Source: Phaeobacter sp. B1627 (GTDB lineage Bacteria > Pseudomonadota > Alphaproteobacteria > Rhodobacterales > Rhodobacteraceae). From it: DNA of 64,000 nucleotides. Where the stretch lies: positions 372,001 through 436,000 of the forward strand of contig NZ_VCNK01000004.1 in the NCBI RefSeq assembly GCF_006265095.1, read 5' to 3'. How positions within the stretch are numbered: position 1 is the stretch's first letter; the number at the start of each line of letters is the position of its first letter. A program made the position numbers and the translations under genes. The notes under the pieces were generated by a model. That model saw nothing but the letters and a program-made list of their open reading frames with translations. It was not told where the DNA came from and searched no databases. Shown in pieces: positions 4,035 to 10,409 of the stretch.

Positions 4035-4130
4035 GAAGTCCGACCATGTCCGAAACGTGATCGCCACGATTGCTGCAATGCGGCCGTCGGGCTGATAGTC
4101 CGAAGTTGCGACACAAACGCGACAGATGGC

Positions 4131-4170
4131 GCAGATTGCCGCAGATTGCCGCAGATTGCCGCAGATTGCC
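4131..4170. repeat. 10-bp perfect tandem repeat, 4 units
   Basis: Four identical copies of GCAGATTGCC, followed by a partial copy (GCAGG). The array ends 36 bp before the methyltransferase ATG. Identical units suggest recent duplication and make the copy number likely to vary between strains. Confidence 0.95.
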
Positions 4171-4206
4171 GCAGGTGCGGCGCAAGCACGAGCAAAAGGA
4201 TCGCAA

Positions 4207-4698
4207 ATGCCGACAAGACTGGATGTTTTTATCGACCGGATGGTGTCTCAGCGCGCCTGTCTGGACTATGCCATCGCCGAAACCGATGCGCTGGCGGGGC
4301 CGGTGTTCGAACTGGGTCTTGGCAATGGGCGCACCTATCATCACCTGCGGCACAGGGTTCAGGGGCGGGACATATTCGTCTTTGAACGCGCGGTCGGTGC
4401 CCATCCTGACAGCGTTCCGCCCGCTGACCGGACAATATTGGGCGATGTGCGCGAGACGCTGCCTGCGGCGGTGCGCCGCTTTGGCCCCGCCGCGAGCCTG
4501 ATTCATGCGGACCTTGGCGGTCACAACCCGGAAAAGAACGATGCGTTTGCCCGGCTGGTTTCGCCTCTTGTGGAGCCACTGCTGGCGCCGGGAGGGATGA
4601 TGGTTTCGTCGGACCGGATGTATTTCGATGCATTGAGCGAGCTGGCCCTGCCGGAGGGGGCGGTGCCGGGGCGGTGTTTCGTCTACAGGCGCACCTGA
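4207..4698 (+). CDS. SAM-dependent methyltransferase (Methyltransf_17-like)
   Basis: 163-residue class I methyltransferase-like protein. Motif I reads FELGLGNGRTYHHLR (about residues 36-50), a glycine-rich SAM-binding loop after a beta strand; FVFERAVGAH fits the acidic motif II strand; LIHADLGGH fits motif post-I. The small size and these motifs resemble the PF12692 group of short methyltransferases, whose substrate is not known to me. Start ATG 4207 is set by AAAAGGA 7 bases upstream; the longer open frame would translate the tandem repeat. Single gene, no obvious partner. Confidence 0.75.
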   Translation: MPTRLDVFIDRMVSQRACLDYAIAETDALAGPVFELGLGNGRTYHHLRHRVQGRDIFVFERAVGAHPDSVPPADRTILGDVRETLPAAVRRFGPAASLIHADLGGHNPEKNDAFARLVSPLVEPLLAPGGMMVSSDRMYFDALSELALPEGAVPGRCFVYRRT

Positions 4699-6738: not shown

Positions 6739-7128
6739 TCAGAACGCCACCATGGCCCAGGCGGCCGTCATCGCCACATAGGTCAGATGGTGCAGCAACT
6801 GGTCCATGCCCATCGCGCGCCAGAATGCGCCCTGCGTCGGGTCCAGTTTGTTGCATTCGGTATGATGGGCCTTCCAGAAGTCGATATTGAAATGAACGAG
6901 CCATTCCGCAGCGCAGATCGCGGCGATGAACCAGGGCGGGCTGCCGACGATGAACAGTACCACCACGGACGCAAGCGCATGCACGCCTGCGTGCTGGGCA
7001 CGACCCGGGTGAAAATACTGGCAGCGTCCCGACAGCATCTTTTTGGTCTGCAGGTAAAAGTCGGCAAACATATGCTTGACCTCAAACAGGCACACCAGCA
7101 ACAGGACGATACCGACATTCTCTGGCAA
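6739..7128 (-). CDS. DUF3307 domain-containing membrane protein
   Basis: 129-residue integral membrane protein with about three or four hydrophobic segments. It shows the family's conserved pattern: KHMFADFYLQT near the N-terminus, then AGVHALASVVVLF, AAEWLVHFNIDFWK and LLHHLTYVAMT, with His and Asp residues inside the hydrophobic stretches. Function is not established for this family. The start is a TTG at 7128, decided by a strong AAAGGAG 8 bases upstream; no in-frame ATG occurs before residue 20. It is transcribed away from the large ABC/cyclic-nucleotide-binding gene, with the CRP-type palindrome in the shared promoter region. Confidence 0.8.
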   Translation of the reverse strand: MPENVGIVLLLVCLFEVKHMFADFYLQTKKMLSGRCQYFHPGRAQHAGVHALASVVVLFIVGSPPWFIAAICAAEWLVHFNIDFWKAHHTECNKLDPTQGAFWRAMGMDQLLHHLTYVAMTAAWAMVAF

Positions 7129-7225: not shown

Positions 7226-7247
7226 GTCTGTGACATAGCTCACAGAC
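7226..7247. promoter_or_regulatory. Perfect CRP-type palindrome
   Basis: GTCTGTGA-N6-TCACAGAC: an exact 8-bp inverted repeat around CATAGC that contains the TGTGA-N6-TCACA core recognised by CRP/CAP-family regulators. It is centred about 53 bp before the proposed GTG of the ABC/cNMP-binding protein and about 108 bp before the DUF3307 start, so it could serve either promoter. Confidence 0.65.
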
Positions 7248-7289: not shown

Positions 7290-10200
7290 GTGGCATGGTT
7301 TGTGCCATTGCCTGTAACCGTGAAACCGCGCTACCCATGGCGAACTGATTACCGCATTGTCCTGTCACATGACCGTCGGAGCCCTCCCATAGAACGTTCG
7401 CTGTTCCAATTCATCTGGAAATATTCCAAGCGGGATCAGATCGTCCTGCTGCTCGTCACCACCTGCCTGTTTCCGTTGCTGTATCTGACGCTGGAATTGC
7501 CCAAGCGGATCATCAACGATGCGATCGGTGCCCAGTCCTCGACTGTTGAGGTCTGGGGCATGAGCTTTGATCAACTCACCTATCTGTGGCTGCTATGTGG
7601 TGCATTCCTGTTGGCGGTGCTTGTGCATGGCCTGACCAAGATGCGCATCAACACCATGAAGGGCGTGCTGTCCGAGCGGATGCTGCGCCGGTTTCGCTAC
7701 AGTCTGATCGCGCGGGTCCTGCGCTTTCCGCAGCCCTATTTCGAACGCACCAGCCAGGGTGAGCTGGTCTCCATGATCACCTCGGAATCGGAACCGATGG
7801 GCGGCCTGATGGGCGATGCCGTCAGTCAGCCGGTGCTGCAGGCCGGTCAGATGCTGACCATTCTCTATTTTCTGTTCCTGCAAAGCTTCTGGTTCGGCCT
7901 GGCGGCCATTGCGTTGATCCCCCTGCAGGCCTGGGTGATTCCGATGCTGCAGCGCCGGATCAACCGGTTGAACAAGAAGCGGGTCCAGCAGGTGCGCGGG
8001 CTGGCCTCCGAGATCGGCGAAAGCGCCGCCGGGGCCTCGACCCTGCGGGTCAACGGGGGCTGGCGCTACCGGATGGCGCGGGTGACAGACCGTCTGGGGC
8101 GGCTCTACGAGATCCGCTTTGAGATCTACCAGAAAAAGTTCTTCATGAAGTTTCTCAACAACTTCATCACGCAGCTGACCCCCTTTTTCTTCTATGCGAT
8201 CGGCGGGTATCTGGTGCTGGAGGGCCGGGTGTCGCTTGGGGCGTTGGTTGCGGCTCTTGCGGCCTACAAGGACCTGGCCTCGCCGTGGAAAGAGCTGTTG
8301 GCCTATTACAACCAGACCCAGGACATGGCGGTGCGCTGGGATGTGATCCTCGAACGTTTCGCGCCACCCGATATGGTGGACGAGCATCTGATGGAGGGCG
8401 AGCCGGAGGAGCTGCCGCATCTGGACGGGGATCTGGTGCTGGACGGGGTCAGCGTCCGGGATTCGGATGGCAATCTCGTGCTCGAAGAGATCAACGCCAC
8501 TTTCCCCAAGGGCGAGCTGATCGGCATTGCCGCCCCCTCGGAGGAGGACCGCCGCGCGCTGGCCGAAGTGCTGACCCGGGAGGTCCTGCCTTCGGCGGGC
8601 CAGGTCACGGTCGCGGGTCATAATATCCGAGAGCTGCATCAGATGGTCCTGGCCACCCGCATTGGTCATGCGACCTCGCGGCCGGTGTTGTTTCGTGGCT
8701 CATTTGGCGAAAACGTTCTGATGCCGCTGCGCATGCGGCCCATGGAAGAGGCCCCGGATATGCGCGCGCAACAGGATGCGGTGCGGGCGGGCAACAGCCC
8801 CGATCCATTTGGCGTCAACTGGGTCGATCCCGGTGTTGCGGGATTTCAGCGCACCGAAGAGCTGCGGGACTGGTGGTTGCGGATCGTCGAGGGGATCGGC
8901 TCTGACACCGCGCTGCTGCGGCGCGGCATGGATCAGGTCTTTGACAAGAGCGAGCATCCAAAGCTGGCGGAGGCATTGGTCAAGCTGCGGCCGCATGTGC
9001 AATTGGCCCTGATGGAGTCGGGGCTGGATGCCTTTGCCCATTTCAACAACCGCGAACGCTATAATCCGGCGCTGCCGGTTGCGGAAAACCTGCTCTATGC
9101 CACCCGCTCGGTGCCGATCACCTACGAGCTGCTGCTGCAGCAGACCGAATTCCTGCAGACCGTGCGGCGCATCGGTCTGGACCGGGATCTGGTGAAGCTG
9201 GCGCAGGATGTGCTGGAAATGCTGCGCCAGATTTTCGGCATGGATGGCACCACCCACCCGTTGTTCCGCAAACTGGGGCTGGAGGTGTCGGACTATGAGG
9301 CCGCCTTGCAGCTGATGCAGAAGATCAAACTGAAGGGGATGGAAACGCTGGACCCGGACGAGCTGGCGCAGATGATGATCGTGCCGTTCTCGATTTCCGC
9401 CGAGGCGCTGGGGCCTGCGTTCAGCAGCGAGATCGAGGACCGGATCCTGTATCTGCGCGACACCCATGGCGCCGAGCTGCTGAGTACGTTGAATGATATC
9501 TTCGTCCCGCTCTACGAGGGCCATTTCTCGCCGGGGTTCACGGTGTTGGAGAACGCGATCTTCGGCAAGATCTCGGACAGTGCCGGCCCCCGCGCCGAGG
9601 ATCTGCGCAAGGTTGTGGCCGATGTCATCGACAAGGCCGGCGTGCGGGAGATGGTGGTCGAACTGATCTTTGATCTGCCGGTCGCGGTCGGGGGGCAGGG
9701 ATTGGGCGCCAGCTTCGCAGAGCCATTGGCGTTTTGCCGCGCCTCGATCAAGCGGCCGGATATCCTGATCCTCGAGGGCGCCCTGGCGAGCTTTGACCGC
9801 GACACGCGGCGGGCGATGCAGGACAATCTGCGCGATTTGCTGCCCGATGCGACGCTGATCTTTCTGGAGCCATCGTTCCGCGATCCGGACCGGTTCGATC
9901 ACTATTTCGAACTGCGGCAGGGCCGCCTGAAGGACGAGCGCGCCGATGACCGGGGCGCGAGCGACGAGGACAGCACCTCGGCGGCGGATCTGTCGCGCAA
10001 GCTGCGGGCGCTGGAATCCACAGAGCTGTTTTCCGGGCTCAACCGGCGTCAATTGCGGCTGCTGGCTTTTGGGGCGCGCTGGTACGAGGCGGCGCCGGGC
10101 ACTGCGGTGTTCAACAAGGATGACGATGCCTCCGACGGTGCCTATATGATCATCGAAGGCGAGGCGGGTTTGTTCCTGCCCGCCGATCACGAGGGCGGCG

Positions 10201-10409
10201 AGAGCCAGTTGATCGCCAAGGTCGGCCCCGGTCGGCTGGTGGGGGAACTGGGTCTGATCCGCAAGGAACCCCGGGCCCTGACGATGATTGCGGAAACCGA
10301 CCTCACCTGTCTGCGGATCGGGGAGGAAGAGTTCCTGGCAGTGGTGGAAAATGACGCCAATACGGCGTTCAAGCTGCTGCAGGTGGTGGCGGGCTACGTG
10401 TCGAGCTGA
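7290..10409 (+). CDS. ABC-exporter-like membrane protein with degenerate ATPase and C-terminal cyclic-nucleotide-binding domain
   Basis: 1039 residues. Residues about 45-340 form a six-helix ABC exporter membrane domain (helices near 50-70, 93-115, 188-222 and 288-320). Residues about 385-880 align with an ABC ATPase, but every catalytic motif is altered. The Walker A position reads GIAAPSEEDRR (no GKS/T); the Q-loop region is HATSRPVLFRGSFGENV; the signature is GGQGLGASF; Walker B is DILILEGALASFD with no Glu; the H-loop is IFLEPSF with no His. About 300 mostly helical residues are inserted between Q-loop and signature. Residues about 908-1039 are a cNMP-binding domain with a GELGL-type phosphate cassette and its Arg (EPRAL). 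It probably cannot hydrolyse ATP and may be a cNMP-responsive membrane protein. The start is uncertain: GTG 7290 or GTG 7320, no in-frame ATG nearby. Confidence 0.85.
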   Translation: MAWFVPLPVTVKPRYPWRTDYRIVLSHDRRSPPIERSLFQFIWKYSKRDQIVLLLVTTCLFPLLYLTLELPKRIINDAIGAQSSTVEVWGMSFDQLTYLWLLCGAFLLAVLVHGLTKMRINTMKGVLSERMLRRFRYSLIARVLRFPQPYFERTSQGELVSMITSESEPMGGLMGDAVSQPVLQAGQMLTILYFLFLQSFWFGLAAIALIPLQAWVIPMLQRRINRLNKKRVQQVRGLASEIGESAAGASTLRVNGGWRYRMARVTDRLGRLYEIRFEIYQKKFFMKFLNNFITQLTPFFFYAIGGYLVLEGRVSLGALVAALAAYKDLASPWKELLAYYNQTQDMAVRWDVILERFAPPDMVDEHLMEGEPEELPHLDGDLVLDGVSVRDSDGNLVLEEINATFPKGELIGIAAPSEEDRRALAEVLTREVLPSAGQVTVAGHNIRELHQMVLATRIGHATSRPVLFRGSFGENVLMPLRMRPMEEAPDMRAQQDAVRAGNSPDPFGVNWVDPGVAGFQRTEELRDWWLRIVEGIGSDTALLRRGMDQVFDKSEHPKLAEALVKLRPHVQLALMESGLDAFAHFNNRERYNPALPVAENLLYATRSVPITYELLLQQTEFLQTVRRIGLDRDLVKLAQDVLEMLRQIFGMDGTTHPLFRKLGLEVSDYEAALQLMQKIKLKGMETLDPDELAQMMIVPFSISAEALGPAFSSEIEDRILYLRDTHGAELLSTLNDIFVPLYEGHFSPGFTVLENAIFGKISDSAGPRAEDLRKVVADVIDKAGVREMVVELIFDLPVAVGGQGLGASFAEPLAFCRASIKRPDILILEGALASFDRDTRRAMQDNLRDLLPDATLIFLEPSFRDPDRFDHYFELRQGRLKDERADDRGASDEDSTSAADLSRKLRALESTELFSGLNRRQLRLLAFGARWYEAAPGTAVFNKDDDASDGAYMIIEGEAGLFLPADHEGGESQLIAKVGPGRLVGELGLIRKEPRALTMIAETDLTCLRIGEEEFLAVVENDANTAFKLLQVVAGYVSS

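Follow-up and report, generated by a model that had tools for sequence, protein, structure and literature searches.

Within a window of 64,000 nt from Phaeobacter sp. B1627 (the whole stretch of DNA analysed), one gene encodes a protein that joins the membrane architecture of an ATP-binding cassette (ABC) exporter to a cyclic-nucleotide-binding domain (CNBD) and has lost all canonical ATPase residues that we scored. Its open reading frame (ORF) covers 7290–10409 on the forward strand and 1039 aa, and residues are numbered from its start at 7290; the coordinates of all features are collected in Table 1. We put at about even the chances that this apparently catalytically dead exporter-type fold serves a surface-glycan pathway, probably one for lipid-linked glycans, as a membrane component switched by a cyclic nucleotide. 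The firm part of this reading is that the protein would work independently of ATP. Five elements go beyond the original prediction made for this DNA, namely a repeated helical subdomain, a class-wide family, a glycan gene context, a divergent DUF3307 neighbour and a non-canonical start codon.

The exporter-type membrane helices of the original prediction are borne out by a Pfam ABC_membrane match and by PDB matches over residues ~93–482 to an ABC-type bacteriocin transporter (presumably PCAT1), ComA, BSEP, Sav1866 and MsbA, which together place the transmembrane domain (TMD) in the exporter type. Hydropathy displays four strong segments within residues 51–326, the remaining helices being assigned provisionally from homology, and a weaker window at 788–806 that is absent from the family average. 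The two best PDB exporters align a second time at ~792–881. Because the exporter matches break between ~482 and ~792, the ATPase domain is split by ~300 residues. ABC_tran reaches 13.9 bits, below its gathering cut-off of 25. The best NCBIfam model, MsbA_lipidA, scores 136 bits where its cut-off is 602, and TIGR03896 is matched weakly (E 2e-6, under its cut-off). The C-terminal part, scoring 56 bits with cNMP_binding against a Pfam cut-off of 27.5, belongs with the CNBDs.

Eight canonical residues were scored, namely the Walker A Lys and Ser/Thr, the Q-loop Gln, the signature Ser and Gly, the Walker B Asp and Glu, and the H-loop His; four exporters from this genome with intact motifs served as the reference (four reference rows counted). 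The window protein retains 0/8, compared with 8/8 in each of the four controls. Relative to these exporters, the Walker A Gly, Lys and Ser/Thr are replaced with Ala415, Arg421 and Arg422, the LSGGQ signature reads LGASF at residues 805–809, and the Walker B Asp and Glu are replaced with Glu829 and Gly830. The claim that Walker A, Q-loop, signature, Walker B Glu and H-loop are all substituted thus stands, and the apparent loss of the ATPase residues is strongly supported. Judged by the sequence features tested, the protein fails as an active ABC ATPase and is an exporter fold; it very probably does not hydrolyze ATP.

Comparison with relatives offers a greater level of detail about this loss. 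Named genomes yielded 325 relatives, and the first family set, consisting of the best 80, was nearly all roseobacters judging by their titles. The roseobacter alignment holds 102 rows (90 orthologs, 9 paralogs and 3 distant members); orthologs and paralogs together make up the 99 roseobacter members referred to below, and duplicates (L089, L090, L091, L098, L100, L103, L105), the window sequence itself (L001) and a split ortholog (L080) were left out. Arg replaces the Walker A Lys in 99/99. The Walker A Ser/Thr, the Q-loop Gln and the H-loop His are kept in none of the 99, the signature Ser in 5, the signature Gly in 3 and the Walker B Glu in 2, and counted per protein 34 members keep 0/8, 57 keep 1/8 and 8 keep 2/8. 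Neither LSGGQ nor a G....GK[ST] P-loop is found in any of the 99 aligned members, so that no close homologue with an intact Walker A or signature emerges from this family-wide motif alignment. Two records deserve mention in their own right: L080 is broken into two ORFs (543 + 463 aa), and a record titled Nocardioides marinus (L020), probably mislabelled or contaminated, holds a 71% identical roseobacter-type ortholog.

The ratio of nonsynonymous to synonymous substitution (dN/dS) between the window protein and four close orthologs is 0.04–0.15 by domain, with 0.05–0.10 in the TMD. Across the substituted P-loop stretch (residues 405–430) it is 0–0.03, indicating that the substituted P-loop is itself under purifying selection. 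Together with the shared motif loss, this gives good support to the proposal that the ATPase part has been reused. A paralog with 50% identity elsewhere in the genome (L002) likewise has 0/8 residues. Pairing these two proteins would therefore recreate no site, and a heterodimer with an active partner of this kind was rejected. No other exporter cluster is prominent among the most frequent neighbour genes of the family loci, and 7/18 same-genus genomes have a single family match at E ≤ 1e-60.

The split of the ATPase domain by ~300 residues was predicted correctly, but the nature of the added sequence had to be revised, as it consists of two extra copies of the helical subdomain. Three versions of this ABC subdomain lie between the Q-loop and the signature, each beginning with a loop like xxSVxENLLFG. 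They were compared as disjoint segments by hhalign, with E-values that refer to one comparison each: U1–U2 gives a probability of 89 (E 2e-6), U2–U3 of 97 (E 3e-10) and U1–U3 of 59 (E 9e-5). Compared with itself over 440–850, the profile matches off the diagonal across 185 columns (probability 98, E 1e-13). For U1–U2 the best of twenty column-shuffled controls scored 18.7 against the real 40.8, and for U2–U3 the best of another twenty scored 17.7 against 56.2. Against the canonical helical subdomain of four exporters, whose profile is thin (8 rows, only 4 distinct sequences), U1, U2 and U3 reach probabilities of 90, 63 and 96, the U1 and U2 matches covering 19 columns each. On this repeat evidence, a foreign domain was rejected as the insertion.

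A 23-member profile finds the family in 140/386 sampled Alphaproteobacteria genomes. In a sample across the phylum 35/397 genomes matched, 34 of these in the same class and the 35th with the membrane domain only; the class was assigned as Alphaproteobacteria from named records. From the profile matches 131 distant loci were chosen, several fragmentary matches, close relatives and the paralog locus L194 not being counted. All eight ATPase residues occur together in 0/131 of their proteins, which indicates that degeneration is class-wide, with the roseobacter branch as its extreme. The number of residues kept is 0 in 14 members, 1 in 24, 2 in 18, 3 in 46, 4 in 17, 5 in 8, 6 in 3 and 7 in 1. No description of this pseudo-ABC family was found in the parts of the open-licence literature that were searched.

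In the C-terminal CNBD the phosphate-binding cassette retains its Glu and Arg, as had been claimed. Among the roseobacter members the Arg is present in 99/99, and the acidic residue is Glu in 90/99 and Asp in 9/99. The distant members display a different arrangement, as a separate same-strand CNBD gene lies directly downstream in 115/131 loci and the domain is fused in 10/131. The end of the pseudo-ABC match and the separate CNBD match are 32–676 nt apart, measured match to match, and the separate genes are ~150 aa long in called genes, the one example tested (L161) having no other Pfam domain. In these 125 distant CNBDs the cassette Gly is kept in 125, Glu in 118, Arg in 125 and Thr after the Arg in 113, most having a PRTAT-type cassette. 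As four checked genomes hold only 5–16 CNBD matches each, linkage in 125/131 distant loci far exceeds what chance would give. Independent support for it comes from the fusion in roseobacters.

These observations suggest that the CNBD binds a cyclic nucleotide, which we consider probable. The Phaeobacter sp. B1627 genome contains 6 CNBD matches, two of them the window protein and its paralog; the catalytic domain of class III cyclases is also matched 6 times. That the protein responds at the membrane to cAMP or cGMP, as the original prediction proposed, is plausible in view of the conserved cassette, the genetic linkage of CNBD and pseudo-ABC gene, the six cyclase-domain matches and a CRP-like site upstream. 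As a separate observation, a 154-aa CNBD gene on Sinorhizobium meliloti pSymB (L297 16808-17272) is annotated as a Crp/Fnr transcriptional regulator, probably a misannotation, because its L161 relative has no DNA-binding Pfam domain.

The gene neighbourhood of the distant members points at glycans. In L161 and L195 the order is polysaccharide deacetylase-like (a name resting on the annotation of its homologue on a Sulfitobacter plasmid), GT28, histidine phosphatase, GT4, GT4 and GT28, followed divergently by pseudo-ABC, CNBD and Methyltransf_17. In 96/131 distant loci one or more of four reference glycosyltransferases is encoded within ~6 kb, and the first GT28 alone in 94/131. On the Sulfitobacter plasmid, nucleotide sugar dehydrogenase, GT28, GT4, GT4, histidine phosphatase, GT28, deacetylase and a paralog-type pseudo-ABC gene run in one direction. 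Phaeobacter sp. B1627 has the glycosyltransferase set on the same contig (C70:359475-365531), 14 kb upstream of the pseudo-ABC gene; in Ruegeria sp. TM1040, GT28 and two GT4 genes are found 17 kb and more upstream of the ortholog. At the S. meliloti pSymB locus there are genes for a cyclase (PF00211, E 1.5e-5) and a polysaccharide lyase, next to sulfotransferase, NodQ and polysaccharide genes. From this gene content we read the region as the pSymB nodP2-SMb21248 polysaccharide cluster, seven genes of which are affected, perhaps indirectly, by the cAMP-dependent regulator Clr according to an excerpt of PMC5498481. Altogether, it seems fairly likely from these arrangements that the family works in a glycan pathway.

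Several observations weigh against the proposed role. The Walker B Asp is still present in 63/99 roseobacter members, and among the distant members there are some with most motifs intact (L242 7/8); ATP may therefore still be bound or hydrolyzed in parts of the family. The cassette of the window CNBD reads PRALT, not PRTAT, and no CNBD was found in 6/131 distant loci. Relatives of the S. meliloti cyclase occur in only 6/131 distant loci, and the idea that the family generally neighbours a cyclase was rejected. In Phaeobacter sp. B1627 the glycosyltransferase set is separated from the pseudo-ABC gene by genes without clear relation, among them an importer and a regulator. The set is outside the fetched flank (≤ 8 kb) in 79/80 roseobacter ortholog loci, L021 being the exception, and the roseobacter clade may therefore have left the glycan pathway. 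Its constant neighbour is instead a DUF3307 protein, of a family whose name carries no function: a homologue is present in 79/80 roseobacter ortholog loci (all but L075), adjacent and divergent in 73 by gene calls, and in 0/131 distant loci.

If the glycan reading holds, a dimeric TMD would form a passage, platform or gate. Binding of a cyclic nucleotide monophosphate (cNMP) in the CNBD, rather than ATP hydrolysis, would move the remnants of the nucleotide-binding domain (NBD), and this movement would open, close or dock a device for glycan handling. AUA initiation would keep expression low, and a regulator of the CRP type, acting at the promoter region that the divergent genes share, would set it. 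For the actual mechanism, a cNMP-gated passage or scaffold is our leading guess, though held as less likely than not.

A regulatory scaffold without transport is the first alternative: the dead exporter would anchor glycosyltransferases or a channel, and the CNBD would tune their activity. SUR, a regulatory ABC protein, is the model for such an arrangement. The lost ATPase residues, the existence of TMD-only homologues, the enlarged helical region as a potential docking surface and the glycosyltransferase neighbours of the distant loci all fit it, but the strong conservation of the TMD fits a passage equally well, and we consider a pure scaffold somewhat unlikely. Homologues of the TMD alone, without an ATPase domain, are ORFs of ~408–434 aa in L206–L209. 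Those in L207, L208 and L209 adjoin genes for multicopper oxidase, CusF or heavy-metal P-type ATPase (copper islands), and the L206 homologue, itself without a Pfam hit, stands among MerR-like genes (by eye).

Another alternative, which we consider unlikely, is a charge-swapped site, with which the distant family would still bind and perhaps slowly hydrolyze ATP, the roseobacter branch having then lost even that. The Walker A Ser/Thr would be exchanged for Glu/Asp and the Walker B Asp for Asn/Ser, so that the metal keeps one carboxylate. Indeed, in the 131 distant members the Walker A Ser/Thr position holds Glu in 59 and Asp in 45 (104 together), and the Walker B Asp position holds Asn in 71 and Ser in 25 (96 together), with Asp in 19. 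The Walker A Lys position is Lys in 77 and Arg in 42, and the Walker B Glu position Glu in 69 and Asp in 23. An acidic Walker A residue is combined with a non-acidic Walker B residue in 96/145 sequences, only Walker B is acidic in 25/145, both are acidic in 8 and neither in 16/145; the association is strong by Fisher's test (6e-11, uncorrected for kinship), and an association as negative as this is seen in 17/13,203 further column pairs. However, phylogenetically independent pairs give 6 for, 1 against and 8 neutral (p 0.125), and the reverse test 4 to 0 with 9 neutral (p 0.125). As these kinship-aware tests are not significant, the charge swap stays a rival only. In addition, only a minority of distant members keep the Q-loop Gln (29/131), the signature Gly (18/131) or the H-loop His (39/131).

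It is comparably improbable that the CNBD recognizes neither cAMP nor cGMP but another ligand, for example ppGpp, or has none at all. HetC, an exporter with an N-terminal CNBD, is reported in an excerpt of PMC10986499 to bind ppGpp in vitro, and the PRALT cassette could be taken in the same sense. The Arg and the Glu or Asp found in every roseobacter cassette and the mostly PRTAT-type distant CNBDs speak against this. As to a decaying pseudogene or a sequencing or frameshift error, the absence of all eight residues from the window copy is countered by open frames, low dN/dS and a loss common to 99/99 aligned members, and the comparative data rule this reading out with virtually no probability left.

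Returning to the gene itself, the frame from 7290 is open as predicted, but its first 33 residues are probably untranslated. Translation probably starts at AUA in position 7389 and not at GTG in position 7290, as 88/90 orthologs have AUA or AUC at the corresponding place. Protein conservation begins abruptly at residue 34, where 3 distant members and 9 paralogs have ATG or GTG, and upstream a G is found at −11 in 89/90 orthologs and at −10 in 85/90. As background, ATA makes up 3.4% of internal Ile codons (157/4604), and its share never exceeds 8.3% in the 24 conserved Ile columns. No ATG, GTG or TTG occurs in the open frame up to the start position in 50/90 orthologs; the remaining 40/90 have one such codon, which in two is the ATG at the start position itself. 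The next downstream candidate of these three codons lies 17–22 codons in for 74/90 orthologs, within the conserved N-terminus, and so does the start annotated by RefSeq for Ruegeria sp. TM1040, 17 codons downstream.

In infC of the same genus, which served as a positive control, ATA is conserved at the expected start in 13/13 parsed loci (17 searched; the infC start position is our own reading). In poor medium the AUA starts of Staphylococcus aureus infC and ccpN yield ~10% of what AUG does, and in rich medium that of ccpN yields up to 30%, as stated in an excerpt of PMC13009471. An upstream small ORF ending at a TAG that overlaps ATAG makes translational coupling possible in only 36/69 AUA orthologs. 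Coupling is therefore no conserved cause of the start, although in those 36 initiation by coupling is possible. A more far-reaching reading is that of a class-wide family with its ATP switch replaced by a cNMP sensor, a hydrolysis-free cNMP-gated surface-glycan device of exporter fold with a triplicated helical subdomain and a roseobacter AUA/AUC start that would, on account of this codon, be tied to IF3 control like infC; as a whole we regard this as doubtful.

In the promoter region between the divergent genes lies the CRP-like palindrome TGTGACATAGCTCACA, the sole match with ≤ 1 mismatch in 64 kb; as the expected count is 1.0, this single occurrence is not significant alone. With ≤ 2 mismatches a palindrome is found within 350 nt upstream in 58/90 orthologs, which are related and hence not independent rows, and in 0/9 paralogs, compared with 79/1000 random windows. 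In Ruegeria it keeps a constant place near −144. Because many orthologs read AATGAACTNGTTCACA at this position, the identity of the protein that would bind is uncertain.

Table 1. Features of the pseudo-ABC locus; nucleotide positions refer to the window, residues to the ORF from 7290.
Feature	Position	Strand	Remarks
Methyltransf_17 (PF12692)	4126..4698	+	homologous to the methyltransferase that follows the CNBD gene in distant relatives
DUF3307 membrane protein	6739..7128	-	divergent; His/Asp-rich motifs by eye
CRP-like palindrome TGTGACATAGCTCACA	7229..7244		divergent promoter region; exact CRP-type palindrome
Shine-Dalgarno-like GGAG	7378..7381	+	7 nt before AUA
Probable start codon ATA	7389..7391	+	90 orthologs: ATA 69, ATC 19, ATG 2
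Probable actual coding region of the CNBD-bearing pseudo-ABC exporter	7389..10409	+	1006 aa, AUA start; earlier ORF begins 7290
Exporter TMD	7503..8258	+	Pfam ABC_membrane residues 72-323, E 6.7e-21
P-loop remnant APSEEDRR (415-422)	8532..8555	+	alignment; fails Walker A GxxGxGK[ST]
Helical-subdomain repeat U1 (461-589), including Q-loop Gln to Ser463	8670..9056	+	profile comparison
Helical-subdomain repeat U2 (590-744)	9057..9521	+	profile comparison
Helical-subdomain repeat U3 (745-815), runs into signature remnant	9522..9734	+	profile comparison
Signature remnant LGASFAE	9702..9722	+	alignment to intact exporters
Walker B remnant ILILEG	9762..9779	+	alignment to intact exporters
H-loop position, His to Pro861	9870..9872	+	alignment to intact exporters
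CNBD	10092..10355	+	Pfam cNMP_binding residues 935-1022, E 3.9e-15
Phosphate-binding cassette GELGLIRKEPRALT	10242..10283	+	CNBD keeps Gly985, Glu986, Arg995

The distinct character of the protein becomes clearer upon comparison with known systems. It has the TMD-NBD order of the Type IV exporters MsbA, PglK, PCAT1 and Sav1866, but differs from them in the missing ATPase residues, three helical subdomains, a C-terminal CNBD and an ABC_tran score below cut-off. With the lipid-linked glycan flippases PglK and MsbA the family shares glycosyltransferase neighbours, common in distant loci and seen in 1/80 roseobacter ortholog loci. Flipping by PglK and MsbA is driven by ATP, whereas the window protein, having none of the ATPase residues, may act as a gate or flippase without hydrolysis. 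In the heterodimeric exporters TmrAB, BmrCD, TAP and MsRv1273c/72c, one degenerate site is kept and the other is active. A degenerate nucleotide site kept by selection is likewise found here, but the protein's own site and that of its paralog are both dead. CFTR and SUR have turned the ABC fold to gating or regulation and still bind ATP; the window protein differs in having no P-loop and in having a CNBD. HetC and the TIGR03896 bacteriocin-associated CNBD proteins also tie a CNBD to an exporter-type ABC protein. In HetC, the CNBD is N-terminal and accompanied by a C39 peptidase and a needed ATPase residue (excerpt of PMC10986499), in contrast to the C-terminal CNBD of the window protein, which has no Pfam peptidase at E ≤ 1 and no ATPase motifs.

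If the start is read correctly, the gene, with its clade-wide use of AUA/AUC, would join what is, to our knowledge, a short list of such protein-coding genes, and the AUA start would explain why the RefSeq annotation of the TM1040 ortholog cuts the conserved N-terminus. ABC exporters are the textbook ATP-driven pumps; if the proposed role is true, the exporter fold can work on a switch other than its ATPase. It would also provide a direct membrane effector for cNMP signalling in alphaproteobacteria, many of whose cyclases have no known target.

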